In this document: in pieces, positions 13,968-64,000 of the stretch
Position numbering within the stretch: position 1 is the first letter of the stretch
Layout: every line of letters begins with the position of its first letter
DNA from: Argopecten irradians
Taxonomy: Eukaryota > Mollusca > Bivalvia > Pectinida > Pectinidae
Assembly: GCF_041381155.1 (NCBI RefSeq)
Contig: NC_091144.1
Coordinates: 32,482,980-32,546,979, forward strand
Length of the DNA stretch: 64,000 nt
Reading direction: 5' to 3'
Notes under the pieces: model-generated
What the model was told of the DNA's origin: nothing
Databases searched by the model: none
The model's input: only the letters and a program-made list of their open reading frames with translations
Position numbers and translations under genes: made by a program

Positions 13968-14139
13968 ATTAGCATATTACAGAGTTATCTGCCCTTGTGG
14001 GTAGATATTGATTGTGATGTTATGTGTTAACGAGCGAGCACAGCGTAATATTTTTCAGAGAAAGTCTTGCCCAGGATATAATGACGCCGCAATTGATACT
14101 TATCCACAAGGGCAGATAACCCTGTAATATGCAAAGTAT
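13968..14139. mobile_element. Palindromic element, GAGTTATCTGCCC family, copy 2
   Basis: The ends read GCATATTACAGAGTTATCTG and GGGCAGATAACCCTGTAATA, with GATTGTGATGTTATG and ATGACGCCGCAATTGATAC inside. This is one of the cleaner copies, with both inverted ends complete. Confidence 0.75.
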
Positions 14140-32900: not shown

Positions 32901-34858
32901 ATATGCATTAAGAAGAACAATTCAATTCGATGGACTTTGTATTAAATCTAAACGCTTTGTGTTAGAAGTTAATATTTGCACTCATTTTATTGCCGTGTCG
33001 CTCACCAGGAATATCATATGTAATAAATAGTGACAGTGTATAGAAACTTGAAACAACAAATGTTGGTGAAGAGTTCTGATAAAGGGAGATAATTATACTC
33101 CATAGTTCAAAACTGGATTTTTGATTCATGAAATAATGATGAACAATTAGTAACTAGTTTATTAAACCATGTTTTGTATATATATATATCATAGGAGAAT
33201 TTTCTTCCAGAAATATTTCAGGACAAATCATTTATAAATTTTCACAGGCAACAAACCATCACGATGTATCTGTATAACGATGTGGATAAAAATATGGAAA
33301 ATTTCCCCTCTGAAGACATTTGAACTCTTCTAACATAAAGGATGGGACAATTCATTATGAAATTTTAGGGGTGACCAGGTTAAATAGCATTCTGTATTAC
33401 AACAATAACTATAGGCTTCTGAACTGAATATAATTGCTATACTGCATACTTGATGCAATTTAAGAATAATTAATCCATACATTTTTCAGAATACATACTG
33501 ATATATTTTCACTTATGCAGAACATCTAGTTCCCATGAACAAGAATTGATTGTTTACAAACAATGTGAGAAAAATGTCATAGAAAATGACAAAATTCCTC
33601 ATGCATATTAATTAATGCTACACAAGGGTAGATAATTCTGTATATTACCCATTAATATCTTAACAATAGTGAACATTCCCAATATCTATCCCACAATGCT
33701 ACTGACCATGTGATCCACTTTGTGACCTTGACCTTTATCAGTCAATGACAAAATTAAATGAATATCAATACAATGCCATATGTTGATATTGAAATATCTT
33801 TAATCTGAACCTCTTTGAATCTTGATTTAGAAATGTCACGATAACAAATTAGGGAAACGTTTTTTTCCTTATCAACACAACATTTCTAAATTGTGGCAGT
33901 GAGAAATTCTCTTGGAATCTACAAATGATTAAGAAATGCCATGATAAATAACTGTGCAAACTTTTTCTTCTTCTACGAAACATTTCAAAATAGAGAACTT
34001 CTTTTAGAATCTACAAATCTTCTGCGACAACAAAAGATTTAAAGAATCGCCTCAACTTAAACTCTAGTACTTCAAACAATCGAAAAATTCAAAAGCTTCT
34101 ATCGATTAATGTTGATTCTTAAGATTTTTCTGAAAATGATATAATGGAGTTTAAGTCTGGATTTGAGGTAGATTCAAGAAATGTTCGTTTAACAGAAATT
34201 GGCTAATATGCCTACATGTAGACTTCAAAAAAATTTCAGTATAGAATCAAGAAATGTTTGTGAAACAGAAATTGGCTAAAAATTGTAAATTTTTTAAGCA
34301 CAGTATATCCTTCAAATGATACTAATCAACTCCATCAACCCAGAAGCCACAAAGTTTCCAATGGTTTGATTCCAAAATGTTCAGTTTAAAAATATTTTTA
34401 AAAAACCCAGTAACGTGATGAACCAGAACACAGAATTGAACAGAATTATTTTGATTGACAATAATTAAATGTAAGCACCTGGACATTCATATTCTTTAAT
34501 GACACTAACCACTATTTTATATTTAACTTTTGCTGCACAAAGATTAGGAATTATGGAGAGAAAAAACCATAGTCATGCTAACGAAAAATAACATCTAGTG
34601 TTACATAACACATACAAAAAACACATAAGATTAATATCAACGTTAAATACACGTACCATTATTCACAAATGGTAACAACGAAAATTTTACAATTATAAGA
34701 GCAAACTCGTTTTGCACAACTATTTATAAATTTTTCGTATTTTGCAATTTTTATAGGTGCTACCCCTTTAATATAAGTTGCACCAAATTTTCACATGATT
34801 TCTATAAATATCACAGTTATCTTCGTAGTGTGCCAGGTTGGACTGGCATTAATGCTGG
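29938..34858. other. Convergent 3' region between THOC3 and the coiled-coil/SH3 gene
   Basis: It starts after the THOC3 stop and ends at the stop of the minus-strand gene. It holds both 3' UTRs and no exon. Locally duplicated segments occur: about 30190-30265 repeats at 30325-30385 (GAAGTGTTGTTGGACAAATA), and about 30945-31010 repeats at 31020-31100 (ATAGAACAAAGACATTATTT). A partial GAGTTATCTGCCC-type element is near 33545-33655. The best plus-strand poly(A) signal is AATAAA at 31636-31641. On the minus strand ATTAAA (34767-34772 as TTTAAT) is a weak candidate about 90 bp past the stop. Short open frames here are noise. Confidence 0.65.
31636..31641 (+). other. Candidate THOC3 polyadenylation signal
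   Basis: A canonical AATAAA is followed within 30 bases by a T-rich tract (GTTTTTATTTCATTT). It lies about 1.7 kb beyond the THOC3 stop, which would give a long but reasonable 3' UTR. I saw no better hexamer with a downstream T/GT-rich tract nearer the stop codon. Confidence 0.35.
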
Positions 34859-36334
34859 TTACGTCCGCTGATGGGTGTGCTTCGTCTCCACTGCGCCTCG
34901 ATACGCTGTTGGAGATTTCGGCGACAACTGAAATATAAATATCGCATATTTCATTCATTGAAACATACATATTTATACAGTTTCAAAATCATAAATAAAC
35001 GACTTATTATTATCAACTGAATTTTCTCAAAACAATGAACACCAGAATACTACATTTTGAATATTTTCAGTCTGGTAAAAATCTGCTCAAAAATTCTTGT
35101 AAAAGTTGTATTAAAAGCTTGGAAAGTATTGTAAAGTTGTATTATAAGCTCATGACAGCATTACAATGGGTTCTTCAAAAGAATAAATGATTTATTTGCA
35201 GACTGAAGCTCCTTATAAAAAGACACACCCATACATAGCTATGCAATATAACCAGATAGATCTAGCGCCATTACAACAGAGCATGTCAACTTTGTTTCCC
35301 TACCATATTCAATCTTTGTATTTATATATGAGAGAGTTATCTGCCCTGGAGGCGGGGTATTGATTGTGGTGTTGTCCAACAAGGGCAGATAACTCTGTAA
35401 CGTACAAATGAAGGGTTAGTAACCGTCGGATAATCTAGAAATCTCAGGAATTCATTGTTAATAGCTTACCTTGACACCAGCACTGTTAACTGGAATCTCT
35501 TCCATGAAACTGGCCGGCACTAGTCCTCGGCGACCATTTATCTGAAAAATACCAAAGGCAATGTCATATTCAAATTACATCCTTAATTCATATTCTTATG
35601 TTAATTCTTTGTCCATCTTCAATGATTTTTAAAGCTGGATTTAAGTATGAAATATATGAGTCGTCTTTGATCTGGGAATATCAATATGAGAGAATATGAA
35701 ATAGTACCCGAAAACTTGTTGGATAATCACAGGGCCACAAGCTTCATCATCATCATCATTATCATCATCAATTCATAATCATCATCATCATTATCAATCC
35801 AAAATAATCACCATCATATCATCATCATCATATCATCATCATCATCATTATCATCATATCATCATCATCATCATCATCTTTCTGTAATCATCATCACACC
35901 ACCCTCATCGTCCTTCATCATCATCATTTACATCATTATCATCCTCATATCATATCATTTCATAACATAATGGTGACCTTATCACTATATACCATTACTA
36001 GAATATTCCTTATTTGCATATTACAGAGTTATATAGTCTTGCAGACAAAATAATGACATCACAATGGATACCTACCTGCAAGGGAGCTAACTCTGTAATA
36101 TGCAAAGACGGAATATTATGAAAGTAAAGACTATCTTTGTATGAAAGTCCGCTACAAAATAAACTGTAAGTGACCTTGACCTATGACCTTGACCCTTACC
36201 TCTCCGTAGTAAAAGCCATCTGGACGTTCTCTGCCGTACACAGTGATGACATCTCCAGCATGGAAGGCGAGTTCGTAGCTGGAGTTCTCACGCGGTGACT
36301 GGTGGGAGGGGTCGTAGTCATACACACCCAAAAA
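34859..36334 (-). CDS. C-terminal SH3 domain and tail (last three exons of the coiled-coil/SH3 gene)
   Basis: Exon 36200-36334 encodes FLGVYDYDPSHQSPRENSSY then ELAFHAGDVITVYGRERPDG and FYYGE. Exon 35470-35541 completes the fold with INGRRGLVPASFMEEIPVNS. The ALYDY-type motif appears as GVYDYDP, the RT loop is long, and DGFYYGE replaces the usual WW, exactly as in the SH3 domains of RIM-binding proteins (family knowledge). GLVPASFMEEI supplies the conserved Pro and aromatic of the binding groove. The last exon, 34859-34927, adds a 22-residue basic tail (LSPKSPTAYRGAVETKHTHQ...) and stops with TAA. Frame was fixed by the phase-0 junction after GVK; other frames of this exon would give different tails but break the splice phase. 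Confidence 0.85.
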
Positions 36335-39300
36335 CTGTAACCATGGCAACATTGATAGTGAATAAAGATTATAAACCAGTTTATACATGGATGTATGTGT
36401 TCACTTTCAGATTTGAAAACTAGCAACAGACCTTTATCAACATATCAGCAATGCAATTATCAATTCAACAAATTGTTTTTGACAGAACGTAAAATAAATT
36501 GAATAAAGGTTGTTTTAAAATAACCAATGAATACAAAAATTCTAAATAGCAAAGGTGTCAGTATTTTCATTAAGAAACAAGAAATTGTATTCAAATCTAG
36601 AGTCATTTAAAACAAACCAGCTAAAATGATGTGTGATAATTTCACATACCAGAAAGTTATGAGTAAAACACAAACTATTTAGAAATTGAAGTGTTGGATT
36701 CTGAAGGTTGTTTTAATAATTTGTCATGAAATATTGATAAAATATTTTCATACCATATGTCGTTTTCCTGCTCGGAAGTCAGTACTGTTTAGGTGATGTA
36801 CCAGGTCCTCCCCCTCTGGTTCCCCTTCTGTGGCCTCCTTCTTGTTGTCAGGGCGATAGCTGATCTCCTTGACGACAGACACTGGACCATTTGTGGTGAG
36901 CGTTTGGATGCCCAGTCGGACAGACTGACCATTGTCGGGAGTGTCCACTACAGCCTTGGACAGATGGGGACTGTTCACTTGCTGTTGGACCTTTCCATTC
37001 ATATAGATCTGGTAGATCAAACATTGTGTTAGTTAATATTTACAACTGAGTAGAGTTATCTCCCTTGTGCTTTAGTACATAATACTTCACGATCTTCATT
37101 TATACTTTTGGAGTTATAAATTTTCACTAAAAATGCTGTAAACCAATTTTCTTTCGCTGTAATTTACTTCTGCGAATTTTGCGATTCAAGTAAATTCACA
37201 TAAATTACTCTCCGCAGATTAACATCCACATTATTCATACTGATCGGAAATTCTGTTCAAATTTCTAAATCTACGAATGTTAATATTTAAGAACTTGGTT
37301 TTAAATGGAAATCGCGAAATTAGCTGCGAAAGAAATTTGATTAATTGTAGTTTAAAAGATGACAAAACCAGTTCTCAAGGACATCATTATCCCGTAACAT
37401 TTATTCAAATTCTTTTTAGAAGCTTTTGATTTGCAACGAAAAAGAAAAGTATAAAGCTAGGGAGCAAATTGTATGTGCCTTTAACATTTTGTTAAATATC
37501 AGTTTACTGAATTACTAAACATGACCTATGACCTACCTTATAACCGATGACCTGTGACCTATTACTCTGGGCAAGTTCATTCAGTTTAGGGGGTGTCCAT
37601 GAGAGTAAGATGCTTTTCCCTCCAGCAGTCTTCTCAGCTTTTAAGTCTGTAGGGGGTTCTGGAACACCTGGCATAATAAAGGAACCAAGTTAAATGATTT
37701 AAGTTTGAGAATTGATTTAAATCATTTGTATTTCTCCTGTGAATTTATCTGCTGTATTTGCATAAAACAGAATTATCAGCCCTTGCCAGTAGGTACTGAT
37801 TGTCATATAAATTGAAGTTGTTTCTGCTGATAAAAATAATGACATCACAATCTATACCTAACCGCAAGGGAAATAACTCTGTTATATGCAAAGATGAATA
37901 TTGTACATATAGATCTTTCATGTTTTTGTTTTTTTTAAACATCAAAATTTAAGTAGTATCATATGATTACGAGTTTAAAATTCAGATAAAACTCACCTTG
38001 TTTAAACTGAGGTGAGAGCTGTGAATTTTTCTGCACTCGAGGGGAAAGATTTCCCGGCAAATGACCATTAAGATGAACACCGTGTTTTGGAGATATGATT
38101 TTTGGTGGCACTGCAAGTTTAAAATAACAGAAATATCATCATTATGTATAGGTAGAAGCAGTGATGTTATATCAACTTGAGATAAAGACCATTATAAAAT
38201 GAAACTGCATGTCTTAGATATTTTTATTCTTTCATATATACATGTATTTTTTTTAAACTGACATCTCTAATATAATACTAATATGGTATAGTTGCTTTTA
38301 TTATGGTTTTAATACTTTGTGGTCAATTTAATTTTTCTTAAATATCCATGAACAAATCCATCAAAATGACAACCTAGATAGCCTATTATTGTTAAGACTG
38401 ACAAACACACATATATTTCTCCCCATTTATAAGTAACAAAGAGAAGAAATTTTCTTATCACAAAAACGACAATTTCTATAAAAGTCTTAGTCTTATGAAG
38501 AAAGATAATTATGTGAGTTTCTTTTCTATGAAAAAAATACTACTTACAGTATCTATGGGGCTGGTGTGATTTCTGGAGCTGGACATGCATGTTGAGGATT
38601 TTCTCTGGGCTGGGATCGAGATGTGACGGCGTACTTTGTAACTGTTGTATCCTCCGTTCGTTAGGACTCGGATTCAGATTTCCCAGATCTTCTATCCCCG
38701 ACTCCGGCTGAACATGACTGGCAGGTACCAAACCTACACGACCTTTGACCTCAGCCTCATAATACCCATGGCTGTCTAATGGACCTATGAAATGAAAAAA
38801 AAAATGAAGAAGATTATGACATGACAACATCGTGCTGTGTGTTACGGATTTAATCCATAAATGTTGACATAGAAGCATGTTGTCATCAGACCTACCAAAT
38901 GTTTGATTTGCTTTGTTGCCTGATTACCCCTAAATATACATTTGAATTCATCTTATTCTAAGACTAGTCTATTATGAAATTTTAGGGGTAAATGAGTTAT
39001 CAAAGTTAGGCCGAAACTTCATAATGTTTAATACACTATATCTTTAACTTCCAAAGGATCAAAGAAATTATATCTCAGAAAATTGAATAATGTGTAAATA
39101 AACAGTTCTATTTCAGGATTATCTATGTTATTTGGTAAAAATGTAATAATTAGAACATACCAGTTTTTAAATAATTTGTCATAAGATATCAACAAACTTT
39201 GTCTTTGTTATGCTCACAAACAAACATTTATAAACATAGGTCATCTTAATTTTTTTATGAAATAAATATTTAATTTTCAATCAGAAACATACACAAAATC

Positions 39301-42300
39301 TTTTTATCTGTTTATAACACAAAGGTACAGAGAAAAATTTGATCTGAATTAACTAACCTGTGATTGTGACAGTGTTGCCCTCTGTGAGCTGTAACTCCAG
39401 TCGAGGACGGCCACTCTTGGAGAATGTACTCGGATCATAATCAGCCACAGCCACATAGGCTGGGTGGCGGGGCATGTGTCCGGCAGGTGGCTGTTTGTGG
39501 CCCTGTTGTTCTAGGCTATACACCGGCAATCTGTTCGGCCGGTGAATCAGAGGAAGCTGCTGTGATGGTAGTGGCCTCTGGTGGCGATCATACTGATCGG
39601 GTCGTCCATTGATATTACGGGGAGATAACTCTGAGTCACTCCATGCACCATGATCTAACACATCGTTAAAAGAGGATACCGAGGAAGATCGCTGCAGATC
39701 CTCGTCAGGTTTGTTGTATTCCTCACCAGCCATTAGTTCCTCCATGTGACGGAGCTGTTCAAGAAGGACTACAGGTTTACTGATCCCCTTAAATTTCCGT
39801 AATTCTTCACCCAGTCGACGTAGCAGCTCATCCTGTAATTTTTTTTTTAAATTCAAAGGTCAAAGGCTGATGTTCTGTATTGAAATTCAAGGTCAATGCT
39901 ATTAAGGAAAGTCACCAATTGCCTTCTTTTGAAGTTATAGATTTCAAGGGCATTCATGTTAAACTTAGCTCAAAGAACTTCAAAATTTATTTTTTAAAGT
40001 TATTTGCATAAAATGCATTACTCTAGATAGACAATATAAAACTATTTTTAAGGCCAGTGAAGCAAACAATTAACAAATTTTAATGGTTCAAAGTCATTCA
40101 TTAACACAAACAAATTACATTGTTTCATTATGATTCATTAGCCACCATCCCTCACATAATCTATTTTATCGTGAGTTATCTCCCCTCTCATAAATTGTCT
40201 CCCCTTACCTTATCTTTACATTTCTGTGAAAGACGATGGACTTTAGACTTCAGCGGTACAAGAGCCAGAACGGCCTCCTCTTTAGTTTGCTTCATCTGAG
40301 AGAACTGCAAAACATAAAATTATGATCAGCATTCCATCTAATATTACCTACCAAACATGTAATATAAGTGTTCAGACAAAATTTGACATCAGTATTGGCT
40401 TTTTGATATAGGGTTTTGTAGAACTTCAGCATTCTATGATGTATGATTTAGAGTTGTATTAAAGCAATATGTCATGAGGCGAATAGTTTGTTAAAGCATG
40501 TATGATATACAAGAATTCCATGGAAGTGGATGTGTCGCCTGCACAGCATCACAAAAAAATAGTTATTTACAGTTGAAAATATTGTTAATAATTAGGTGAA
40601 GTTATCAAGTCCCTTATCTCTTGCAAATATTGATGGATTTTGACCAGTATCGAACTCATCTAAGACCTCATTAATATAAAGCAATACACCATATTTGGTT
40701 GAAATCAGACAATAAATACTGAAGTTATCGAACGGAAACCATGTTTTGACAATTTTAAAGTTCTGTAACTCTTGCAAATATTGATGGATTTTGACCAGTA
40801 TCGAACCCATCTGAGCTCTCATTGATATAAAGCAATATACCAAATTTGGTTGAAATCAGACAATAAATAATTTATTAAGTTATTGCACGCAAACCGTTTC
40901 CCGGACACTGACATAGTGATACCTAAGTGTCGCCTTTGCGTTGCAGGCGACACAAAAAGTGTGAGTTAGAAAATGGTACAGTTGATAATAATCATAATCA
41001 TAATTTAAATTGTCATTGTTTCACAATGCATTCGCAGCAGACACTGGTTAGATGTATATGGTGAAAATATTCAATTCTGTACATATTAATTAATCATATC
41101 TAAAATATCCCAATGACTGTAAACCTGCCTGGAACTAGAAAAGAAATTGTTTGTTGTCATGATCAAGCAAGTGAACTGAAATTCAATAGTATAAATGACA
41201 GTTAAATGTGATATTCACTAAATACAACATATAACCTATCGTGAAAACGAGTGATGTTTTATATTCTGTCACAGAAAACAAAGAAAATATGAAGACTTTG
41301 ATTATTAGACTTTTCATATGAAAACTTGTGAACCATGCATATCTGAAAATTTTCTTCCTAGAAAGACAACATCCAGTGAGTGATGATAGAATTTAATAAA
41401 GTGAAACATCTCATTGTATTCCACCACACATACAATGTGTCTCAAATGATAGCCTGAACTAGAATGGGATGTAGGAGCATGGACATCAGGGTAGTTATAA
41501 AACATTAGCCCCCTATTCTATGGTAGGAGGTTCAATTTGGGACAAAATGCAAAAGCCTCTCTGAATGCTAATGAGCTTTACGTAGTTAGAAGGAATCAAA
41601 TCTTCCTTGTAGAACAGAAGTTTCACCAGCTAAATTCTATGATCAAAATGTTGTTTGGCAGTTCACATTCAAATACCCACAACTGAAAACTGTATCAAAA
41701 TGTAGAAAAATTCAAACATGGATATCACTTTCTTAAGGATGGTTGAAGAAACTAAAGGCTTAGATATTGAACATTCTACTACAAGTCTTCCACCTCTGGG
41801 TCTTGAGTTTAAAGCCAAAGTGTATTGTGCAAAGATCATTAATTTATTCACCCCTGAAATCTCTTAATGAAACGGTCTAGTCTTTGATTACGAAGAGTTT
41901 AAATGTGTCTTCAGGGGTGGATAAATCAAGGTTAGTAATTTCTTATCAAGGTTTTTGTATCAAAAAAAAAAAAAAATGCTGGCAAACCTATATGAAAGTA
42001 CAGATATGGAGGATGGGTTTTGGGGTGAGGGTGGAGTGATCCCTCCATCCCTAAGCTAGGAAAAATAATTTAAAATAAAAATCAATATTTCCACCACCAT
42101 GCTTGGATCATGCAGACATCAATGGATTTAGAAATATTACCTGTGCCTTCACATTGTCGTAACCAACAATGTCTTTCTCAAGGCAAATGTTATCTTGTTC
42201 AAGGGAGACAACTTTGCCCTTACAATCTGATATCTCTCTTAAGAGATCTTTTATCTTTTCCGACTGATATAGGCAAAAGAAGAGAATATGATTTGTGTTA

Positions 42301-45300
42301 TTTTTTCATGAATTTATAATTGTAAGGATTTAAAAAATAAAGAAGAATTCAGATAACAATTTTCTGTTATTTTTTTCTCAAAGTGTTTAAATCGTTCTTT
42401 TGTTTTCATTTTTTTTTTACTTTCATTACTTTTGTGTATGCAAAGAAGCACTAAGTTATGCAGAAAGTAAAAATTTCCTTTAGGTATATTCTTTGAAAAA
42501 TATTCAAAATTGGCGAATTTCATGGATTTTATCAGTTTTAACCAATTTTTTTCATGAATTTCAATTAATCAATCAGTGCCATCCAATTAATTTCCTTTAT
42601 GAATTTCATTTTATGGTTTATTTGTGATTTTTTTTAACGTTGGTGATTTACAACAAGTATGTTTACCCTATCTTCTAAAAGCTTAGAACACTCGTCAAGT
42701 TTTTCCTCCAAATGAGAATTATCTTCCTCTAATTGCGGGATGAGTTCAACCTCGGACCTCAGAGAGGACACCTGGTCAGTCAGCCGAGTGTTTTCTGCGA
42801 CTGTTATCTCTAAATCCTTTATACGTCCTTTGAGTTTTTTCGACTGTTTTGGGGAACAACATTAGCAAAGCATAATCAAATTATTACAACTTAGCATTGG
42901 CAGTGTTTAGTGTATTAATTTCAGATTTGGTAAAATTGAACTTTTATATAATGTAAACTAACTTTTTTGCAGCTGCTTTTCAGAAGTTCCTCTTCAAAAT
43001 AAATTTGCATAGATAAACATTCACGGAATCAAAAATTAAATATTAGAAAATTCGATATAAATGTTTGTATTTTAATTTGTGAAGAGAATCTTTCGCGAAT
43101 TTATTTGGATCTTGAAATTCGCGAAAGTAAATTGCATGCGAAAGAAAGATGATGTACAGTATCTAGAAGTTGTCAAGAACCATAAATAGTATTGAGTTAT
43201 CCAAGCATTTGAATAGATTTGTGGTAACCCAGTAATTTTAATGATTAGTGTAAAGTTATGTTAGGACCAACAAGATTAAGAAACGTCTTCAAGTAACACA
43301 AAGTAAAGATATTACAGATCTATATGTGAGAACAAAACTCCCTGGGCTTTGGTAAAAGTCTTTACCTGTTTTAGAAGCTTGTTGTTTTCATCTTTGGCAT
43401 GTTTTAGAGATTTCTCCAGTTCCTTGATCTCCTCTGCTTCCTGTTGAAGACATTGGAGGGAGTCAAGTGCGTTAGTTCGCATGTCCTCGATCGTACGGCA
43501 TTCCTCCTGCCATTGTCGTAACTCGCGCATCAAGCTATCAGCTTCATTTCTCTGTCAAACACAAATTTTCATAAAAATTTTTTTTCTATAATCTATACAA
43601 ATTTATATCAAACTTTAACAGTCCAAATTAAAGCAAAGAATGATTTCATATTCTTGAAACAAAACAATGACATCACATCATCTATTCAAAATCAATCAAT
43701 AAAACACTGTTCTGCAATGTGATCTCTTGGTTGTTTTTTTTAAATTACTAGTCAATTTGGTTTTATTTGTTTAAACTTCCCATAAACAACCATGGTAGTT
43801 AAAGGATCTGCCAGGTTTGCTGGTAGAGGAAAGTCAGAGTTCCTGGAGAAAAATCACCACCCAGCGGTGTGTAAACTTCATTTTTGTGACAATTCTTACC
43901 TTAGCGACAAGTTCTCGTTGCCGTTTGTTGAGCTCCATATTAAGAGCAACAACATCTTGCGACAAATCAAGCTTCTTGTGACCAACATCAGCAAGCTCCT
44001 CACGGACCTTGATTAGTTCGGCCTCTACGATCTGGATGACTTCCTTACTGTTTCTAGTATCCTGTTAGAAATTGAAGTAAGATTTGGAATTTTATAGGAG
44101 TTCGTAAAACGGGACATGAATTCATACTTTTTTTTATAGTTTACCGGTATAACTGTATACAATGTGTGATAAAATGAGGAAGACACTATAAACAAATTAA
44201 TGGTAATATAAATTTACTGTGCATACTGTATTCGACCCAATAAACGCCCACATCCCTATAAGCTCCCTCCCCCTTCTTTTAGGCTTCAATTTCACTTACT
44301 TTGAATTAATGCAGACTGGAAATATTATTATTCCCAACTGATGTCTTTTGTATATTGATTGATGGCTTACTTTGAAGAATTATTTTATGAAAGGCAAGTC
44401 CAAATTTGTTTCTATATTTTTTTCTTTATCTATCCAGACATGATATATACTTATAACTAAACAAATCTATTGTCTTACCTTTAGTTTGAGGGTTTCAGAC
44501 AGCGTGTCCAGGAATCGCTCCAAGATGAGAATGTATCGAGATTTGTTTTCCAAATCTTTCTCCAACTTTGCTATCTAAAAGCAGAAGGTATACCATTTAG
44601 AACTTGTAACATCTACACATTTATTTCTATCAACATTGAAGGCTATATATTACAGGACAGCCTTTCCCATACACATAAAAGGTGTGTGTATACATGCATT
44701 ATAAGTATTTTTCATATTCAATTGAGTTTATTAAAGATACTGCCAATGGTAATTATAATCTTTTAATAAAAACAGGAGCAGATGGATTTATGTTTTTCTT
44801 CAGTAACAGTAGTTACTTACTTAACATTATTCTGTCTTTGCATATTGCAGAGTTAGCCCCATTGCCGGTAGGTATCAATTGTTACGTCATGATTTTGTAA
44901 GCACAATTCATGTCATTTTCTCTGAAATGTGTTACGCTACGCTCGCAAACACATGACGTCACAATCAATATCACCCGTAAGGGCAGATAATTCTATAATA
45001 TGCAAATACAGAATTACCATCATTGAACAGTGTGAGCATCATTCTTATTTTACTTTAGAATAGAAGTATTTAAAACTTTTAATATAATTATACATCCTAA
45101 AAAGTCCAGGCATTATGCCCTATATGGAATGGCATCTAACAACTGTTTGGATTTCGTTCAAAATCAGATACTTTCATAGTTGTAGAGATAAAAGATTTAT
45201 ATTAAAATTCTTAGAAATTGTGCTTGAATTTTTTTTTAATATTTCTTAATATCTACAGAACTTTTTACAACAACATTAGAAAGACGAGCAGTTTACTGAG

Positions 45301-51300: not shown

Positions 51301-54300
51301 GCAGCAGTGAAAATGATCATACAACACAGTTTAACACGCAGTGAAATCTACATACGAACGTGTAACATTTTGTCAATTGTTGTTATAATGTTACGATACA
51401 ATAACATTCCTGTGACGGCAACTTTCTAGAATTTGTGATCGATAAGCAAACACACGAGTGAAACAATCTGTCAAACTACCCTGCTGGTATCTACATTGGT
51501 TAAAAAGCAAGTCTCATTTCATCACAATAATTAGGTTATCAAGTAAAGTTAACAGAAATCAATATTTCTTTCTTTAAAAAAAAGAAAATGTTAATCAATA
51601 TGAAAAGCTAAATCACAGTGCTTGTTAAATCTAAAACAGTTTCTAAGAAACTAAAATTTGATTGAACAAAAAAAGAACATTTAATGCTGGTTAATTATGG
51701 GTTAATTAAAACAAATCTTTCAAGCAAACAGTCAAGATTGAGACAACAATTAAACAACACGATGCTTACCTTATGGACGCTGCCCTCGTCAACGGTGCTA
51801 GCGTCTGACATGTCATCATAATTCATGACATCATAACGGTCACTCTGGACCGGCGATTGCGTAGGGTGTCCGGCCTTGGCGGACCTGGTCATTTGACCTT
51901 GACCCTTAGCTCCTCTCTCTGCTAGGCGACCAGGAGCCTCCATGTGTGAGACTTGTGCCTGGTCAGCTGAGATGCCTGTTAAAATGAACAAAAGGATACT
52001 GAGGTATGACAAAAATTAATTTCATTAAATATCCTAGATTCTATCATAGAACTGTTAAATAGACGAGCCTGTAGCTAACTGGTATACCATGACAAAGTCA
52101 ATTCATTAACATCAATCTTCCACAGACAACCCATTAAAATTACATGGAAGACAAAAAACCTTTTAGATTTAAAAGAATAATGACATAGAAATGAAGGTAG
52201 CACATTCATATAAAAACTTAAGATCATTTTACCCAAATATATTTTCATTAAAATTTCTCCTCATAAACTCAATTCAAAGGAAAGAAATAAGCAGACGACA
52301 CAGTGGATACCTACAGCACAACAAGAGGTGGTGACCAGCTGCTGTGCCTGGTACGTAATGTTCTTTATAGATATATTACCTACAGCCCCTTATTGATCTA
52401 CAAATGTGTCCACATCTGGCTCCATACACTTCAATTGTCTTTTGTGTCCATGTGTGGCATTTCATGGATCATATATATGATTTGGATGCATGTTAAATAC
52501 AGACGTCACAGATAAGAGATTTTGATAGATATCTACATTACAAGTGTCCTTGTAAAGAAAAAACATTTTCCAGGATCGTATTTGATTTCGGTGCAAAAAT
52601 CAAAATGAAGGTGGTAACTTGGATTACAGACAATCATAATAAGAATAATCAACTCACCATTATGTACGACTGGCCCCAAGTCCTTCCACTGCACACTGTG
52701 CATATTCTGTCGCATTGCCTGTCATGACAATATTGACAATACATACACAGTCAAACCTGTCTATAGAGACCAACCAAGGGACAGAGGGAAAATGTTCTTT
52801 ATAGCCAAGTGGCCTTTATACACAGGTCAAATTGAAATTGATCATTTGGGACCAGAGATAGATGCACATTCTGTCGCATCGCCTGTCGACAACGATGTTG
52901 ACAATACAATAAACAGTCAAATCTGTCTTAAGACCACTGATGAGATATAGAAAAAGAACACCATTATAACCATTTAAGTCATCTTTTAACTCGGGGCAAA
53001 TTGTGTTGAAATTTTGGATGAACTTTAGGGGCTGTGTTTGGGTAAGGGCATTCACTGCAAGGGGTCATGTTGGAGAATGGCTTTGAAAGGTTACATTACA
53101 ATTGGGGAAATACACAAAGGGCTATGTCAGTGAAATAATTTAAACGGGTCATGTTTTAATGAACCAATTTTAAAAGAATCTTACTTCTACAATAATTAAA
53201 CTTCTTTAAAATATTGATAGCATATAAATGAATGCAATGCAATTACTTTTATCTGATCTTGACCTTATGAGGACTAGTGCGAACTTGAACCCTGCGACTT
53301 ACCTTAATTGTCTTGGTAGACTGAGCCAAACGTCTTTGGATAGCCTCGAGTTCAGGACTACTAACGTCCTGTTTGGTCAGAAATGAAAGTAAACAAAATG
53401 TGATCAACATGCCAAGCTGGAGGTGAGAAAAGGTCATTTGAAGGTCAACTCAAGGTCAAAGTGATAAATGTGTCTATGTGAGTATCTAAAAATATATCTT
53501 AGTGTAATTCAATTATTTTATAAATTTAACTACTGGTAGCATCTACATACTAATTTCAAAAGGTGAAACAGTTGTTGAGAAAAAAAAACATGAACAACAC
53601 AAGTCATTATACAGTTTCTATATGTATATACATATGAAACAGAAAAAAGAGTTAAATTTACATGCATTTATGTCTGAACAATACTTCAACAGTTATTTTT
53701 CTCTTTTCGTATACCGCCCTCCCCACAATTTTTTTTTTGGTAAAGTAGTGATATCGCCCCCTCCCCCCTCCAGAAGCTTTCTTCAAAGTAACAATTTCTT
53801 GAGATGTAATCATTTTCCCAGGTATGAATTTACATTTATTCCCTTCCCAAGGGGCCATGGTGGCTAATAGGCACTAGCCCTCTTCTCATGGTTTCGAAAA
53901 TGTGCTAATAATTTTTTTTTTTTCAATGGTGGAACTACAAAGTGAAAAAGAATAAAGCACAATATTACAAGCATATCTTTAAAAATAATTCAAAAAAGGT
54001 AACAAATAGAAACTTGTTCAAGCTTAATTATCTCCCTTTGTCCTTACCTGCCCTTCTTGCATCCGTTTGACTGTATCTAACAGCTGGGCGTTTGTCTGCT
54101 CCATTTCGTCGAGATGGAGTTCCGTCTGCTCCAGCAGAGCCACCTTTGTTTGTAACTCCTGATACTCCACTAGAGGGAGCTTCACTGCCGATTTAGACGT
54201 CGAAAGGTTTTGATAATCGAGTACACGAGATTTGAGCTTCTCGTTTTGGTTCTGGAGGATAATCAAACGGCGTTGACAGTCCTCCAGCTTCCTGGGAACC

Positions 54301-57300
54301 TTGAGGGAGCTTGGCGCGTCCAGTGGTAACTATGGCAACGGGATAGAATGAAATATAAATCAGCAATGGTGTAATTTGGTCGAAACAACAATGTTTAGTA
54401 ATTTTAAAACGTTGATTTTAAGTACAATGTACTGTTACAGTTCTGTGCAATGTAATCAATGAACCTTTTTTAAACTCAATACAATAACTCATTCACCCCT
54501 CAAATTTTATAATGGACTGGTCTAGTATTAGAAGCAGAAGAGCCCAAATGTGTCTTCAGGGGCAATATAATCAAATTAATTCTCAACAATTCAATTCTTT
54601 TTGAATCAAAAGAAAACAGTTCTTTGATTATGAATGCAGAGTTCATCAACAGATACACCTTGAGAATTGTAAATAAAATGAAAATTTCTTGTTCATTAAT
54701 GAATATTTCATGAGTTTTGATGGTATATATACATCTTCAAAGAATACATTCTAATACATGAAATGATTTCCATTTTTTTTAAAAAGTTCTCTAACCTGTG
54801 TGCCTGAGTTCTCCAGTTCCTGTATCCTATACTTTAACTTATTCTCACTACGTTGGAGCTTGCTGAGTTTATCCTTCAGGATTGTCTCCTCTTCTTCTGC
54901 CTGACGGAGCTTACCCTGCGTATCGACCTCCTTCAGCTGAAGGTCCTTGACCTTCTTCTGAAGTTCCTTTTCACTTTTCTCGAGACTTTCGGCTTCCTGT
55001 TGAAGCCGAAGTTCAGTGTCCTTGAGGGCGATAGCTTGTTGTTCTAACATTTGAACCTGGTTCTGTAACTGAACAATGTGATGTGTGAGTGCACCGTTTT
55101 CCTGAACGACGTGATTAAAGTTTTGCGTCAGATCAACGTTTACCATTTGTAATTCCGAGTTTTGTTGGTCGGTGCTAGACCCATGTGTTTGAAGCTCAGA
55201 TAACTTTTCATTAAGCATGATTTCCTTATTTTCTTGGTCCTTTGTCCGCTGTATTAAATTAGCTTCTGCATTTTCCAACTCCTTCAACCTTAAGTGTAAA
55301 TATTCCGTTTTTTCTGCAAGTGCATTCCGTTCTGTTTCCAAACTTTGCACCTGTTTTTTCATTTTTGCCTCGGAAACACTCAACTCTGTCATGGAGGTTT
55401 CAAGGTTTTCCGACTTACTCAGCCAAACTTCCTCATCCAGCTTATATTTCCGAACCAATTCCTTGAGTCGCATTTCCATAACTTTCAGTTCGGAGATCCT
55501 GTCTTCAAGACGAGAGATTTGGTCCTCCAGTTCCTCGACTTTATTGTATAAGCTTCGTTCCGAGGCTTCAAACTGATTTACCTGTTCCTTTAAATTTTTC
55601 TCCGAAAGAGTTAGCTCACGCAGTTTGACATTTTGGTCGTGGATGAGGTTTTTATCTTTCCTGGCAATCTCATGGAGTTCCTCACGGTCCTGTTCCATGT
55701 CCAACACCTGCAGAATGTCAAGGTCATGTACAGAAATTCAAGGTCACAATGAATTGTATTCTATGCAAACACATTTGAGATAATTTTGTGTTGTTTTTTG
55801 ATAGTGTAACTTAACATTTTTGAAGAATGTAAAGGTCATATACATAATGTCAAGGCTACATACAGAAATTCAAGGTCATGTACAGAAACTCAAGGTCACA
55901 ATAAATTGTATTCTATGAAAACAAATTTGAGATGATTTTGTAAAATTTTCTGATTAAGTAACTGGACTTTTTTGAAGAATTCAGAAAGAGGATATTATTC
56001 ATAATTCTTCTGTAATGCAAACGGTACTTTTTATTTAAATGTGTAAATAGCCACAGCTACTAAAGTTTTGATGATAAAATAAGCCCTCTAATTGTATTAC
56101 TTTATTTTTATCCTTTCTCCTGTCTAGAAGGAACATTTTTTTTTTTTGGGGGGGGGGGAGGGTATTTTTGCTACTGTAAGCCTGTATATATACGCGTGTA
56201 ATTTCGCGATTTGTAAGTGTTAAGATTTTGAAATATTTTTATTTTCCGAATATATACACTTCTTCGAACTTCAAGCATCAGATTTAAACTTTGAAATTTT
56301 TTCCACAGTTAAAGATTTCCGTGTTATAAGCAAAAATTTTAACATCACGTAAATTTCCATTTTTACAGTATATCCATAATTTTTCTGAAATCCACGAATC
56401 CAAAACACCAGTGAAATATTTTGAATTACAGTACTGTTATGTAAAATATGAAACACTTCAATTATGTTACCCGGTCAACGAATTTAAAGCACTCAGTAAC
56501 ACAGTACCTGTTGCTTAAGGTGTTTCTCCAATCTCTCCAGCTCTCCAATTCGTTTTCTCAGGATATCCTCCGGTTGGTCCAACATGGTGACTGTTGTCAT
56601 GGGAACACCAGTAACAACCTGTAACTTTTCCTTCAGATGTTTCTCGCTCTGTTCCAACGCTGTAATCCGATCCAGCAGATCCTGCCTGCTCCCATCTGAA
56701 GATGAGGTCACATGATTACGATCCTGAGCACCAAAGCCTCTTTCTGAGGTTGCATTCCTGACCTTGAGCTCAAGGTCAGCCTTTGACTGCTCTAGATGAT
56801 GGATTCGTTGTTGAAGTCGTTTCTCGGACGATTGGAGAACATTTATCTGTTGATTGAGGTCGGCATCAGATCCTGTGTCACCAGTGCGGAGTGACGATCT
56901 GTGGAAAAAGGAAACTTGTATAAATAGACATCAACTAGAAGTTTTAATCCAGTTTTATATCATATCTTGTGTTTATAACTTTTGTTTAAACACTGGGGTT
57001 GATTTAGTGCACATAGCATGTTGGGTCGAAATAACCCGCCGTATACATCACACGTATACATCACACGGGCTGAGACATTTCATACCTGCGCACAATAGAT
57101 GTAAACAAACATGTAGACGACCACATTGTGTTAGTGTTATTTCAGACTAAAGAAGGCCCTATAGTGGCTGAATATATATTCCATAGAAATGATTTTGATC
57201 TTACTTTGAATTTATTTTGACCATTTAATTTGAATTATTAATATACTAGCTTTATACCATTTTTACCTCATTATTAATCCAGTAGCAAATGGTTTTTTTC

Positions 57301-63300: not shown

Positions 63301-64000
63301 CTGTTGCTAACCAAAGCTACACAGAGAGGAATCTAGGATGAACTCAAAACAAATATCTATTTTTCAAAAATCATCTATTGCATGTTTTACTTTGCTAGGC
63401 TAATTTCAAACAAATATGTACCAGCCGTCACAGAATATTAGTTTAAGTTTGCTTGTGACCTAATGCAGAAGAATATTGGGTCTAATAGAAGCTTGTATCT
63501 GGCAAGGCCAAGATATCTGTGTTTTCAAAAATATGTCTTATGTCAAATTTATTGTATATATATATATATATATATTTTTTTTTTTTTTATTGAGAATTAT
63601 GAGTCATAAAGCTATGTATGAGCATAAGAAAAAAATCTAAAAAGAGCGAACCCTTCAATGTCTAAAACAATGTATATTTAATACTTTCTCCGATACATAA
63701 TTTTCAGATTTTTATATTTTCAGATTTTGTGTATTTATCATAAAAACTTTGAAAATATTTCCAAAGTCCATCAAATGTATTATTTGATAGGATGGAATAA
63801 TTGATCATAAGCGACAGTGTTTTACTTTAAGCTAAATAAATTTCCCAAGCTATTTTAATAACTGTATATCAAATAGAGGAAGCTACAAAAAATCTCTATA
63901 CATTATGCAGGGAAGGGAGACAACTCTTTCATCTCTACACCAACACCACAAAAATTCTAATGTTGTATACTAGCTATGCTATATAAGCTTACCTGATCTT
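34859..64000 (-). CDS. Long coiled-coil protein with SH3-FN3-SH3 C-terminus, RIM-binding-protein-like (5' end outside window)
   Basis: Twenty-five exons on the minus strand join in phase: 63993-64000 (partial), 56508-56898, 54796-55707, 54048-54329, 53303-53368, 52658-52718, 51770-51975, 47336-47992, 46859-46921, 46346-46408, 45915-45944, 44479-44574, 43900-44061, 43366-43551, 42667-42843, 42141-42263, 40209-40304, 39358-39832, 38548-38784, 37997-38110, 37537-37667, 36754-37008, 36200-36334, 35470-35541, 34859-34927. They total 5,067 nt: 1,688 codons plus stop with no internal stop. All borders are GT-AG. Residues about 1-1210 are mostly coiled coil, with a low-complexity Pro/Ser region in exon 47336-47992. 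An SH3 domain lies at about 1318-1373, an FN3 domain at about 1470-1565 and a second SH3 at about 1598-1657. The SH3 and FN3 modules look most like RIM-binding proteins, which tether presynaptic channels and RIMs, but those usually have three FN3 and three SH3 domains, so I leave the symbol empty. The protein is probably a cytoplasmic scaffold. Confidence 0.85.
35313..35412. mobile_element. Palindromic element, GAGTTATCTGCCC family, copy 4 (short)
   Basis: A 100-bp form: GAGAGAGTTATCTGCCCTGG on the left, GATTGTGGTGTTGTCC in the centre and AAGGGCAGATAACTCTGTAA on the right. The central inverse present in longer copies is deleted. It lies in the intron just before the 34927 exon. Confidence 0.7.
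35742..35950. repeat. ATC/CAT microsatellite
   Basis: An interrupted (ATC)n run of about 200 bp, with TTATC and AATTC interruptions. Intronic, with no coding role. Confidence 0.9.
36003..36116. mobile_element. Palindromic element, GAGTTATCTGCCC family, copy 5 (short)
   Basis: The ends read ATTTGCATATTACAGAGTTA and GCTAACTCTGTAATATGCAA around CAAAATAATGACATCACAAT. The outermost bases GAATATTCC and GGAATATT are also inverse. It is intronic, about 85 bp from exon 36200-36334. Confidence 0.7.
36754..37667 (-). CDS. Fibronectin type III domain exons
   Basis: Exon 37537-37667 encodes the first half of an FN3 domain: VPEPPTDLKAEKTAGGKSIL, then LLSWTPPKL (the conserved tryptophan of strand B), then a stretch ending VIGYK. 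Exon 36754-37008 continues with IYMNGKVQQQV (strand C'), RLGIQTLTTNGPVSVVKEIS (strands F and G) and an acidic linker (EATEGEPEGEDLVHH). The phase-0 junction inside the domain gives GYK-IYMNG, matching the GY.VY pattern of FN3 strand C. RIM-binding proteins usually contain three such domains; here exon phases leave no gap for more. Confidence 0.82.
37750..37900. mobile_element. Palindromic element, GAGTTATCTGCCC family, copy 6 (diverged)
   Basis: The left end CTGTATTTGCATAAAACAGA, with AATTATCAGCCCTTGCCAG, and the right end GCAAGGGAAATAACTCTGTT are diverged but collinear with the family. ATAATGACATCACAATC lies in the centre. It is intronic, between exons 37537-37667 and 37997-38110. Confidence 0.65.
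38548..39832 (-). CDS. First SH3 domain with preceding Ser/Pro-rich linker
   Basis: Exon 39358-39832 starts with the end of the coiled coil (DELLRRLGEELRKFKG), passes through a disordered Ser/Pro/His-rich linker (RSSSVSSFNDVLDHGAW, RPLPSQQLPLIHRPNRLPVY) and enters an SH3 domain at AYVAVADYDPSTFSKSGRPR with ELQLTEGNTVTIT. Exon 38548-38784 finishes it: GPLDSHGYYEAEVKGRVGLV then PASHVQPESG. As in RIM-binding proteins the paired tryptophans are replaced by GYYEAE. The domain is split by a phase-1 intron at the GP junction. The adjoining Pro-rich linkers could be intramolecular SH3 ligands (inference). Confidence 0.83.
38925..39000 (-). mobile_element. Small ~85-bp palindromic element, TCATTCACCCCTGAAA family, reversed
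   Basis: TTACCCCTAAATATACATTTG on the left and GAAATTTTAGGGGTAAATGA on the right, with GACTAGTC in the middle. It lies in the intron that splits the first SH3 domain. Confidence 0.6.
40209..46408 (-). CDS. Central coiled-coil block, eight exons
   Basis: Exons 46346-46408, 45915-45944, 44479-44574, 43900-44061, 43366-43551, 42667-42843, 42141-42263 and 40209-40304 are all phase 0 and each a multiple of three. They encode an almost uninterrupted heptad-repeat region: TSEALRQMENYDKENRYLKE, IAKLEKDLENKSRYILILER, VREELADVGHKKLDLSQDVV, LQCLQQEAEEIKELEKSLKH, LKGRIKDLEITVAENTRLTD, SEKIKDLLREISDCKGKVVS and MKQTKEEAVLALVPLKSKVH. Since every exon keeps the frame, any of them could be skipped without a frameshift, which would change rod length in exact steps. 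No motor, membrane or enzymatic motif is present. Confidence 0.85.
40520..40955. mobile_element. Inverted-repeat element with GTGTCGCCTGCA ends and an internal duplication
   Basis: The left end GTGTCGCCTGCACAGC is answered on the right by GCGTTGCAGGCGACACAA. Inside, a ~150-bp segment (TCTTGCAAATATTGATGGAT, GACCAGTATCGAAC and TTTGGTTGAAATCAGACAAT) is tandemly repeated twice. It is intronic, just upstream of exon 40209-40304 in the gene's own orientation. Confidence 0.7.
41848..41930 (+). mobile_element. Small ~85-bp palindromic element, TCATTCACCCCTGAAA family
   Basis: TTCACCCCTGAAATCTCTTA on the left and GTGTCTTCAGGGGTGGATAA on the right flank the shared GGTCTAGTCTTTGATTACGA core. Intronic. 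Confidence 0.65.
44228..44330. mobile_element. Half copy of the CCCAATAAGCGC family
   Basis: ATTCGACCCAATAAACGCCC followed by TCCCTATAAGCTCCC and GGCTTCAATTTCACTTAC matches the left half of the element at 14328. I could not find its right inverted end, so it is truncated. Confidence 0.5.
44716..45140. mobile_element. Nested insertion: GAGTTATCTGCCC element (copy 7) inside a GATGCTCCACC-family element
   Basis: The outer element runs 44716-44828 (AAACAGGAGCAGATGGATTT, TTTTTCTTCAGTAACAGTAG) and resumes at 45015-45140 (ATTACCATCATTGAACAGTG, GCCCTATATGGAATGG). The order is the same as in the uninterrupted copy at 459-800, where ACACCATTACCACCATTGAA is continuous. The inner element occupies about 44829-45014, with ends TTCTGTCTTTGCATATTGCA and ATATGCAAATACAGAA. 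So the GAGTTATCTGCCC family was active after the GATGCTCCACC family. The insert contains a perfect TGACGTCA near 44955. Confidence 0.8.
45915..45944 (-). CDS. 30-nt microexon in the coiled-coil region
   Basis: Between acceptor TGATATAG and donor GTAAGTCGG lie 30 nt encoding LPPAVRRKAK. It is phase 0 on both sides, so it can be included or skipped without a frame change. It inserts a Pro-Pro kink and a basic patch between KEE and IAKLEKDLEN, breaking an otherwise continuous coiled coil. The alternative acceptor CTCCAG, 11 nt further in, would read CTG TAA and stop, so the ATATAG acceptor is preferred. The polypyrimidine tract is weak. Short, frame-neutral microexons of this kind are often nervous-system specific in animals (known pattern); that is only a suggestion here. 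Confidence 0.65.
46590..46760 (-). mobile_element. GATGCTCCACC-family element, reversed fragment (copy e)
   Basis: Read on the minus strand it has TTACACCATTACCTGATTAT, AGCTTCTAATTTAAC and GCACTATGCCCTATATGG, collinear with 540-670 of copy a. Both ends are missing. Intronic, between exons 46346-46408 and 46859-46921. Confidence 0.6.
46859..47992 (-). CDS. Low-complexity Pro/Ser-rich exon and following linker exon
   Basis: Exon 47336-47992 (219 codons) is the largest non-coiled-coil segment. It has an acidic helix (SDDRQRMIDDLVSHLDSAEN), a tryptophan pair in basic surroundings (HWKQ, DKRWVNVGK), SESESQ, a basic MKRRKFRP patch, a polyproline stretch (APPPLPQSQPPS), and ends in an amphipathic helix (RSQALQDRISEISHALQ). 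I do not recognise this segment from any family. MKRRKFRP could act as a nuclear localisation or acidic-partner motif and APPPLPQSQPP as an SH3 ligand, including for this protein's own SH3 domains (inference). Exon 46859-46921 adds KKPGVNSEVTDDEGVMIWKI K. Both are phase 0. Confidence 0.82.
47271..47345 (-). repeat. Tandem array of donor-like GTAATTACAG repeats at the end of an exon
   Basis: On the minus strand the end of exon 47336-47992 (TTTACAG) runs into GTAATTACAG repeated with variation about six times. Possible CAG|GT donors follow at exon ends 47336, 47326, 47300, 47287 and 47274. Use of the one at 47300 would add exactly 36 nt in frame (VITGVNYRVKLQ) with no stop. The others shift the frame. 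Confidence 0.75.
48629..48815. mobile_element. Palindromic element, GAGTTATCTGCCC family, copy 8
   Basis: Complete: CCGTCTTTGCATATTACAGA with GTTAGCTCCCTTGCGGGTAG on the left, and CAAGGGCAGATAACTCTGCA with ATATGCAAATACAG on the right. The centre holds GTGTTACGTCATTATTTTG and ACATGACGTCATAATCAAT, the latter with a perfect TGACGTCA near 48757. It is intronic, between exons 47336-47992 and 51770-51975. Confidence 0.8.
49172..49371. mobile_element. Complete inverted-repeat element, CCCAATAAGCGC family
   Basis: The left end ACCATATTCAACCCAACAAG and the right end TTATTGGGTTGAATATGGT are inverse copies. Inner inverse blocks include GGTGCTTAATAAG and GCGCTTATAGGGAC. About 200 bp, non-coding, intronic. 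Confidence 0.75.
49440..49615. repeat. Dispersed hairpin repeat, CCTGTCTATAAAGACCAC family
   Basis: CAGTCAATCCAGCCTTATAG on the left, CTTTATAAAGACCACCTG twice in variant form, and TGGGTGGTCTTTATAGACCG on the right. Related to 4561, 16129 and 52745. Intronic. Confidence 0.6.
49868..50303. mobile_element. Inverted-repeat element with CCGTGCGTTCCATTTGC ends
   Basis: The left end CCGTGCCTTCCATTTGCAGA with TTCGTACCAGTTG and the right end CAACTGGTACGAATCCGCAA with ATGGAACGCACGG are inverse over about 34 bp with three mismatches. TAT is present on both sides and may be a 3-bp target duplication. A second internal fragment (ACGAATCTGCTGTATCTCAA then ATGGAACGCGCCG, about 49912-49945) repeats the end sequence, so the left end is doubled. 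Four overlapping open frames here are by-products. No transposase. Confidence 0.7.
50325..50620 (-). repeat. Tandem dimer of a tRNA-derived SINE
   Basis: On the minus strand two units about 152 bp apart each carry tRNA promoter boxes. The first has TAGCTCAATCGGTAGAGTA (A box, 381-392 of the 50 kb block) and GGTTCGAATC (B box, 50356-50365) with the anticodon arm deleted. The second has TAACTCAATCGTTAGAGCA and GAGTTCGAGCACC with a fuller tRNA-like body (about 50510-50568). Both units share the tail CTACATTTTCTCCTCTCCTG. The boxes are diverged from a functional tRNA gene, so I call them SINEs and not tRNAs. Confidence 0.7.
50760..50843 (+). mobile_element. Small ~85-bp palindromic element, TCATTCACCCCTGAAA family
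   Basis: CTCATTCACCCCTGAAATTT and GTGTCTTCAGGGGTAAATGAG are almost perfect inverse ends around GGACTGGTCTAGGCTTTGAT. This is the cleanest copy in the window. Confidence 0.7.
51770..53368 (-). CDS. Three linker exons between the coiled-coil blocks
   Basis: Exon 53303-53368 encodes DVSSPELEAIQRRLAQSTKT IK (phase 0). Exon 52658-52718 encodes AMRQNMHSVQWKDLGPVVHN and leaves one nucleotide. Exon 51770-51975 completes GISADQAQVSHMEAPGRLAE, passes through a polar stretch and ends in DRYDVMNYDDMSDASTVDEG SVHK. The tail has the look of an acidic, phosphorylatable motif. No domain is recognised. The 5' end of exon 52658-52718 and its acceptor are duplicated upstream in the gene's sense (52863-52929). 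Confidence 0.8.
52740..52930 (-). repeat. Duplicated exon 5' end and acceptor, with a CCTGTCTATAAAGACCAC repeat
   Basis: The exon start and acceptor at about 52699-52765 (plus-strand ATATTCTGTCGCATTGCCTG, then CAATATTGACAATACA and ACAGTCAAACCTGTCT) recur at 52863-52929 (ACATTCTGTCGCATCGCCTG, then ACGATGTTGACAATACA and ACAGTCAAATCTGTCT). The copy keeps a usable AG at the same place (exon-like edge at 52882) but no donor follows, so it is a decoy acceptor. A hairpin repeat of the CCTGTCTATA family lies between the copies. Confidence 0.75.
54048..56898 (-). CDS. N-terminal coiled-coil block (three large exons)
   Basis: Exon 56508-56898 (SSLRTGDTGSDADLNQQINV, ITALEQSEKHLKEKLQVV, RIGELERLEKHLKQQ), exon 54796-55707 (304 codons: VLDMEQDREELHEIARKDKN, LRELTLSEKNLKEQVNQFEA through YRIQELENSGTQ) and exon 54048-54329 (LPLDAPSSLKVPRKLEDCQR, QTELHLDEMEQTNAQLLDTV). 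A loose internal motif LExSExxLKxxVxxLE recurs every 25-40 residues, suggesting growth by internal duplication. Low Pro/Gly and strong a/d hydrophobics predict a long parallel dimeric rod. The 304-codon exon is the longest in the gene and is phase 0 at both ends. Confidence 0.87.
54488..54565 (+). mobile_element. Small ~85-bp palindromic element, TCATTCACCCCTGAAA family
   Basis: CTCATTCACCCCTCAAATTT and GTGTCTTCAGGGGCAATAT flank GGACTGGTCTAGTATTAGAA. Intronic. Confidence 0.6.
55725..55940. repeat. Two-copy duplication beside the 304-codon exon
   Basis: ACAGAAATTCAAGGTCACAA then TGAATTGTATTCTATG at about 55730-55785 recurs as ACAGAAACTCAAGGTCACAA then TAAATTGTATTCTATG at about 55883-55935, again followed by AATTTGAGATGATTTTGT. 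Several TCAAGGTCA motifs lie within it. Confidence 0.75.
58120..58380. repeat. Dispersed repeat with an ACAG microsatellite
   Basis: The segment CTGTCGCCAGAGTGGACAAC through ACCAAATTTTATCGAAATCT to AGACAGACAGACAGACAG and TTACCGGGGTATAACTAA looks like a dispersed repeat (a 93-codon plus frame crosses it). Related repeats in invertebrates often end in a CAGACAGACAG run (general recollection). I found no second copy in this window. Confidence 0.4.
60530..60740. repeat. Cluster of GTTCATGATNATATGAAC palindromes
   Basis: Four variants lie within about 200 bp: GTTCATGATGATATGAAC, GTTCATGATTATATGAAC, GTGAATTCATGAAC and GTTCATGACTATTAATATGA. Each is a near-perfect dyad. The purpose is unknown; it may be a local duplication or an intronic regulatory cluster. 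Confidence 0.5.
63553..63588. repeat. TA dinucleotide run followed by poly-T
   Basis: (TA)n of about 24 bp followed by about 12 T. A simple sequence repeat with no other role visible. Confidence 0.9.

Follow-up and report, generated by a model that had tools for sequence, protein, structure and literature searches.

A 64,000-nucleotide stretch of the Argopecten irradians genome (NC_091144.1, positions 32,482,980 to 32,546,979; hereafter the window) carries a real, intact-looking gene whose product ends in one SH3 domain (SH3-A), one FN3 domain and a further SH3 domain (SH3-B), preceded by long stretches of predicted coiled coil. We give a probability of about 0.7 to the reading that this is a second, divergent relative of the RIM-binding proteins (RIMBPs), shaped by duplication, module loss and coil lengthening, whose product would act as a tether with an SH3-FN3-SH3 head. 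Derivation from a RIMBP as such is very likely. The genome carries two RIMBP-type loci, whereas one Rimbp has been reported for invertebrates, the sea urchin excepted.

Splice-aware assembly joined 25 minus-strand exons, from 56898 to 34859, into 5,128 bases in frame (Table 1), giving 1,708 codons followed by the single stop. All 25 acceptors have AG and all 24 donors have GT. These results bear out the first-pass annotation, which had described 25 exons joining in phase, at least 1,688 codons and a 22-residue tail; the final exon encodes 22 residues and the stop, which ends at 34859. Joining in phase is cheap evidence here, since phase 0 accounts for 20 of the 24 introns in the window. Codon and splice-site scores were trained on the clearest of these 25 exons, so scores within the window are not independent, while those of exons outside it are out of sample. 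A pseudogene was considered and set aside: together with the upstream exons described below, the chain runs to 3,188 codons without an internal stop, with AG/GT at all borders. The intron that splits SH3-B contains a TCA-type microsatellite (35744-35959).

Table 1. Features of the window, in window coordinates.
Feature	Description	Positions	Strand
Linking exon, window end	edge of the 95-base exon 63993-64087, putative bridge between exon 1 and the upstream rod exons	63993..64000	-
Exon 1	coiled coil; requires 2 bases from upstream exon	56508..56898	-
Exon 2	coiled coil, long exon; motif L..[STAND]E..L...V..L, six copies	54796..55707	-
Exon 3	coil	54048..54329	-
Exon 4	coil	53303..53368	-
Exon 5	first coil block ends, non-coil linker starts	52658..52718	-
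Exon 6	linker	51770..51975	-
Exon 7	short linker exon	51223..51291	-
Exon 8	219-residue linker, 657 bases, single exon	47336..47992	-
Exon 9	linker	46859..46921	-
Exon 10	second coil block starts just ahead (residue 2379 of 3188)	46346..46408	-
Exon 11	30-base micro-exon, weak acceptor (score 1.6)	45915..45944	-
Exons 12-17 (span)	second coil block	40209..44574	-
Exons 12-17 (singly)		44574-44479, 44061-43900, 43551-43366, 42843-42667, 42263-42141, 40304-40209	-
Exon 18	coil end, linker, first half of SH3-A	39358..39832	-
Exon 19	second half of SH3-A, linker	38548..38784	-
Exon 20	linker, SH3-A to FN3	37997..38110	-
Exon 21	first half of FN3 (PF25523)	37537..37667	-
Exon 22	second half of FN3, linker	36754..37008	-
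Exon 23	first part of SH3-B	36200..36334	-
Exon 24	remainder of SH3-B	35470..35541	-
Exon 25	22-residue tail and stop	34859..34927	-
Possible poly(A) signal	AATAAA or ATTAAA, downstream of stop	34767..34772	-
Paired TTTGCATATTACAGAGTTA elements	five elements (ten of 13 matches)	13969-14135, 36013-36106, 37757-37892, 44837-45006, 48639-48808	

The start of the protein does not lie inside the window, and coding exons in the same direction continue in the DNA beyond its end. In coordinates continued past 64000, five further minus-strand exons (63993-64087, 64469-67636, 70077-70943, 71967-72113 and 72761-72922; the second is 3,168 bases long) bring the product to 3,188 residues without an internal stop, SH3-A beginning at residue 2,818. 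The protein is therefore probably 3,188 residues long or longer, across one weak link. Four of these exons have out-of-sample codon scores of 24.7, 30.6, 55.3 and 249.4, while the 95-base linking exon (63993-64087) scores 0.4, with 3.9 in another frame, and its total of 14.8 falls inside the range, 12.6-16.0, reached by the top-scoring exons when a 36 kb stretch was shuffled ten times. The same exon has the phases that the chain needs (0 in, 2 out) and a G+C content of 48%, compared with 25-27% in its flanks.

Still farther upstream, 45-58 kb beyond the window, nine candidate exons lie on the same strand between 109048 and 121566 (continued coordinates). Eight joined pieces of these match JAKMIP_CC3 (PF16034), a domain of the Janus kinase and microtubule interacting proteins (JAKMIP), at E 2.2e-19, the best stretch covering three pieces, and five of the nine exons match human JAKMIP1 weakly, one by one. 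If they belonged to the window gene, the encoded protein would be a giant composite, some 3,500 residues or more in length, with a JAKMIP N-terminus, a rod and the SH3-FN3-SH3 head. Such a molecule would bind microtubules at one end and PxxP motifs at the other, and would represent an overlooked second RIMBP class, perhaps together with the sea urchin Rimbpb. Consistent with this, a phase 0 junction could connect the last JAKMIP-like exon to the first rod exon, the genome search for JAKMIP found only this place (one exon, 7.4e-4 and 27.8 bits, by itself below the 30.2 cut-off), and no exon on the gene strand of the intervening 36 kb exceeds the shuffle range (best 14.0 versus 12.6-16.0). However, that gap is about fivefold the longest of the chain's other introns (7.1 kb) and would be unremarkable as the spacing between two genes, an in-frame ATG lies at 72943, immediately ahead of the first rod exon, and vertebrate JAKMIP1 ends near this point. 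A composite is unlikely, and a transcript shared with the adjacent JAKMIP_CC3 exons is conjecture. On the other strand of the same gap, only a glycine-rich low-complexity frame exceeds the shuffle range; partial tandem copies lie immediately upstream of the exon at 111468-111551.

The prediction could instead have fused two adjacent genes, one long and encoding coiled coil, the other shorter and RIMBP-like, whose border lies in a large intron. Phase 0 at 20 of the 24 in-window introns makes such joining cheap, introns of 7.1 kb and 3.2 kb, the two longest of the chain, offer places for a border, and the linking exon has the poor codon score and shuffle-range total given above. Yet, within the 7.1 kb intron, no initial exon candidate scores above 7.6 and no terminal one above 9.8; for the 3.2 kb intron the two maxima are 7.5 and 7.7 (values that have no matched background, and short end exons are easily missed). 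Furthermore, exon 1, exon 2 and the 3,168-base upstream exon share the coil motif L..[STAND]E..L...V..L, with one, six and three copies respectively, whereas neither the rest of the protein nor any of four control coils contains it. These same exons supplied the motif; with that reservation, its recurrence favors a single gene, and we regard fusion of two genes as rather improbable.

In the single gene that we prefer, the head is of RIMBP type. Pfam matches of the whole product are SH3_2 (5.1e-24, in two stretches), Ig_RIMBP2 (PF25523; 6.5e-17) and fn3 (0.011), with further matches to SH3_9 and SH3_1 and weak coil matches. Profiles built from RIMBP and other reference domains, with the window domains left out, were run against all stop-to-stop stretches of at least 15 residues in six frames of the window and 70 kb upstream (134 kb). 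Below E 0.1 they found four SH3 pieces and two FN3 pieces, all within the exons of the chain and none elsewhere in the 134 kb, and missed FN3 or SH3 exons were therefore set aside. The earlier description of exactly one SH3, one FN3 and one SH3 thus agrees with both searches, while its statement that the SH3 domains carry FYxGE-type sequences applies to SH3-B (FYYGE) and not to SH3-A (YYEAE).

Compared with 177,635 PDB sequences, SH3-B has RIMBP SH3 domains at ranks one to six (2csi 7.1e-20, 4z88 1.1e-14, 4z8a 3.5e-14, 2ege 2.5e-12, 2csq 3.5e-12 and 1wie 2.6e-11), followed by GRB2 at 5.4e-8. SH3-A is more divergent: its first four matches are RIMBP domains (best 4z88, E 7.1e-9), CED-2 ranks fifth, and the other two RIMBP SH3 domains rank seventh and eighth. 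Among the best matches of both is 2ege (KIAA1666, or RIMBP3). The window FN3 domain is nearest to fly RBP (5.2e-10) and human RIMBP2 (2.5e-5), then to a receptor phosphatase (0.003), and on its own scores 68 bits against PF25523, with a cut-off of 27. Both SH3 domains also have an RT-loop insertion of RIMBP type that is absent from four other SH3 domains. By PDB ranking, RT-loop insertion and PF25523, then, the SH3 and FN3 domains are of RIMBP type. Their number is different, with two SH3 domains in place of three (six frames, 134 kb) and one FN3 domain in place of two to three (Pfam and profile search), and for this reason we do not file the gene as a canonical RIMBP. The SH3 labels of 4z88 and 4z8a follow PMC4536467.

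A canonical RIMBP is present elsewhere in the genome, as the first-pass annotation had suggested checking. PF25523 finds three places, one of them the window gene and the other two on another contig (C9), where 90 kb hold SH3-I, FN3-I, FN3-II, FN3-III, SH3-II and SH3-III in that order. The three C9 SH3 domains are 61, 77 and 62% identical to the matching human domains; the labels SH3-I, II and III of the human PDB entries agree with the C9 order. Since a canonical RIMBP sits on another contig, the window gene would be a second, divergent relative. An SH3-B search of the genome listed 16 places, comprising two window-gene exons, three on C9 and eleven others (E 2.1e-5 to 0.52); a third RIMBP-like locus was set aside, as PF25523 finds only the two C9 places and the window gene.

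The correspondence between individual modules of the two genes is less clear. The C9 FN3-III stretch, the window FN3 and C9 FN3-I score 118, 68 and 34 bits against PF25523, which indicates that this is an FN3-III-type model and that the window FN3 is nearer to it than C9 FN3-I is. By pairwise BLAST, the window FN3 is equally near C9 FN3-I and FN3-III. The window FN3 and C9 FN3-III each begin after a phase 1 intron ahead of a PEPP motif, which is weak evidence because a phase 1 intron is common before FN3 domains. SH3-A is no nearer SH3-I than SH3-II by sequence. Its placement as SH3-I is supported by the coil end, which lies roughly 100 residues before SH3-A, in pairwise scores over 207 windows: this segment is the best window against a human RIMBP2 coil (65; at most 41 elsewhere) and a TSPOAP1 coil (54 versus 49). 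It is not supported by the pre-SH3 coil of the C9 gene, for which this expected place ranks only tenth of the 207 windows (46; best elsewhere 53). Exon 18 and the end of exon 17 also carry a RIMBP-like V..L...C motif.

Some of these comparisons could be taken to mean that the gene belongs to a separate family, in which the combination of a coil with SH3 and FN3 modules arose by convergence. SH3-A is just 31-40% identical to nine RIMBP and C9 SH3 domains (top identities to PDB and C9 domains are 40% for SH3-A and 52% for SH3-B), introns split SH3-A and SH3-B at other positions than the C9 SH3 domains, and the C9 coil has its best match away from the expected place. In a 15-row SH3 tree that included four non-RIMBP SH3 domains, the free topology placed both window SH3 domains with RIMBP (94/96, not starred) and left subtypes open. 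The AU test on this tree rejected none of nine groupings, among them subtypes I, II and III and the grouping with the four non-RIMBP domains (p-AU 0.545 for SH3-A, 0.259 for SH3-B). As the tree does not decide, the RIMBP assignment rests on the other lines, and against convergence the PDB ranking (RIMBP at ranks one to six for SH3-B), the RIMBP-specific FN3 model and the RT-loop insertion all agree, and the module order is compatible with RIMBP. Of the two origins offered by the first-pass annotation, these lines, together with the canonical RIMBP in the genome, favor a RIMBP relative that lost modules and leave convergence a slim chance. A reading in which the animal has no RIMBP besides the window gene, with its reduced module number, would fit the domain types but is refuted by the six-module canonical gene on C9, barring contamination or misassembly.

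On the RIMBP-derived reading, the head would be SH3-I, FN3-III and SH3-III, two deletions away from the canonical order. After a RIMBP duplication, FN3-I, FN3-II and SH3-II may have been lost with their long linkers, and the coiled coil ahead of the first SH3 may have lengthened. The earlier suggestion that the gene gained a long rod is not supported as worded, because the C9 gene also has coiled coil ahead of SH3-I; that of the window gene is longer. The label lophotrochozoan-specific likewise goes further than a comparison within one genome supports. A crude heptad scan marks 1,792 of the 3,188 residues as coil-like, compared with 317 to 647 in five shuffled sequences. Within the window, the same scan marks 806 of the 1,338 residues before SH3-A. 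The marked residues form blocks, between which some 335 residues, exon 8 included, have no coil marked; the coil is thus shorter than the roughly 1,200 residues of the first-pass annotation.

Exon 8 had been described as unlike anything recognized, and it has no match in Pfam, NCBIfam, PHROGs or PDB. It falls on the disordered side of the charge-hydropathy rule (H 0.411, boundary 0.428), and its single-sequence AlphaFold2 model has a mean pLDDT of 54.9 and a pTM of 0.17, with helices only near the ends. The model is weak evidence, since alignment-free models are often poor; taken with the charge-hydropathy value, the simplest reading is that exon 8 looks like a flexible, disordered linker. Within the coil, a 14-residue repeat suspected by eye in exon 2 proved weak (z 1.8 at lag 14, -1.3 at lag 7), while in the 3,168-base upstream exon lags 7, 14, 21 and 28 all give positive values. 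The end of the rod also matches PF15030 (DUF4527) 1.1 bits above the cut-off. We set this identity aside as coil cross-matching because the C9 coil does not match PF15030.

The predicted product would be a long rod, probably dimeric, that includes a flexible hinge and ends C-terminally in a compact SH3-FN3-SH3 head. SH3-B retains the groove aromatics and the GxVP proline in alignment and may bind PxxP-type ligands. SH3-A keeps the GxVP proline, has Ala at the first groove aromatic and has Ser-His where others have Asn-Phe or Asn-Met; with these aromatics lost, it may bind weakly or not at all, given the usual roles of these groove positions. The architecture could therefore suit a long tether, or a scaffold for transport, in which a single PxxP-competent SH3 links a proline-motif partner to a ligand of the rod itself, a function to which we give even odds. 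The canonical C9 gene would then perform synaptic calcium-channel coupling. As a family, RIMBPs bind RIM and voltage-gated calcium channels at active zones. Across the 3,188 residues of the window gene's product, a class I-like motif occurs only in the protein's own tail. In fly RBP (PMC4536467), the calcium channel, the kinesin adaptor Aplip1/JIP1 and RIM have PxxP motifs to which SH3-II and SH3-III bind. The Aplip1 and Cac crystal structures show class I binding, and replacing proline by leucine in the GxVP motif of either domain abolishes Aplip1 binding.

Compared with the known RIMBPs (Drosophila RBP, RIMBP2 and TSPOAP1/RIMBP1), the window gene shares RIMBP-type modules, a compatible order and a coil before the first SH3, which coiled coil also precedes in vertebrate RIMBPs. 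It differs in having two SH3 domains and one FN3 domain where they have three of each, a short stretch before the last SH3 where they have a long linker, a much longer coil, a partly altered SH3-A groove and a coexisting canonical copy. Mammalian RIM-BP3, of the spermatid manchette, is likewise a diverged RIMBP paralogue, though RIMBP3 keeps three SH3 domains. The animal survey by Coppola and colleagues (PMC7565545) attributes RIMBP3 to duplication within vertebrates and gives RIMBPs three SH3 domains and two to three FN3 domains, with losses reported and no FN3 in a cartilaginous-fish Rimbp3. According to the same survey, invertebrates including Crassostrea gigas and Octopus have a single Rimbp, the sea urchin excepted, and highly divergent sequences were kept out of the tree (PMC7565545). 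The sea urchin Rimbpb, compared here only by its description there, is also a second, divergent invertebrate Rimbp, and we found no report of a second molluscan RIMBP in the open-licence literature. If such a second class proves widespread, a branch in the evolution of the active-zone scaffold has been overlooked, and a comparison of the two genes would tell the RIMBP modules needed for synaptic roles from those needed for other roles, e.g., transport.

Rfam and tRNA searches of the window were empty. An open frame at 25636-25899 (+) has a stretch that by eye resembles reverse transcriptase (YINDI...FADDA) and no Pfam match at E 0.01. The downstream neighbor, on the opposite strand, is represented by two pieces of a THOC3-like WD40 protein at 28383-29141 (+), which match PF25174 at E 4.7e-51 (174 bits on partial sequence, with a cut-off of 305). 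Short elements with inverted ends TTTGCATATTACAGAGTTA account for 13 matches in the window with at most three mismatches, where 0.1 are expected, and are likely a small non-autonomous transposon. Two tandem arrays are also present: a 41-base satellite at 10395-13117 with about 66 copies (93% matches), and a 33-base minisatellite at 14576-15237 with 20 copies (99% matches) that is open in one plus and two minus frames.
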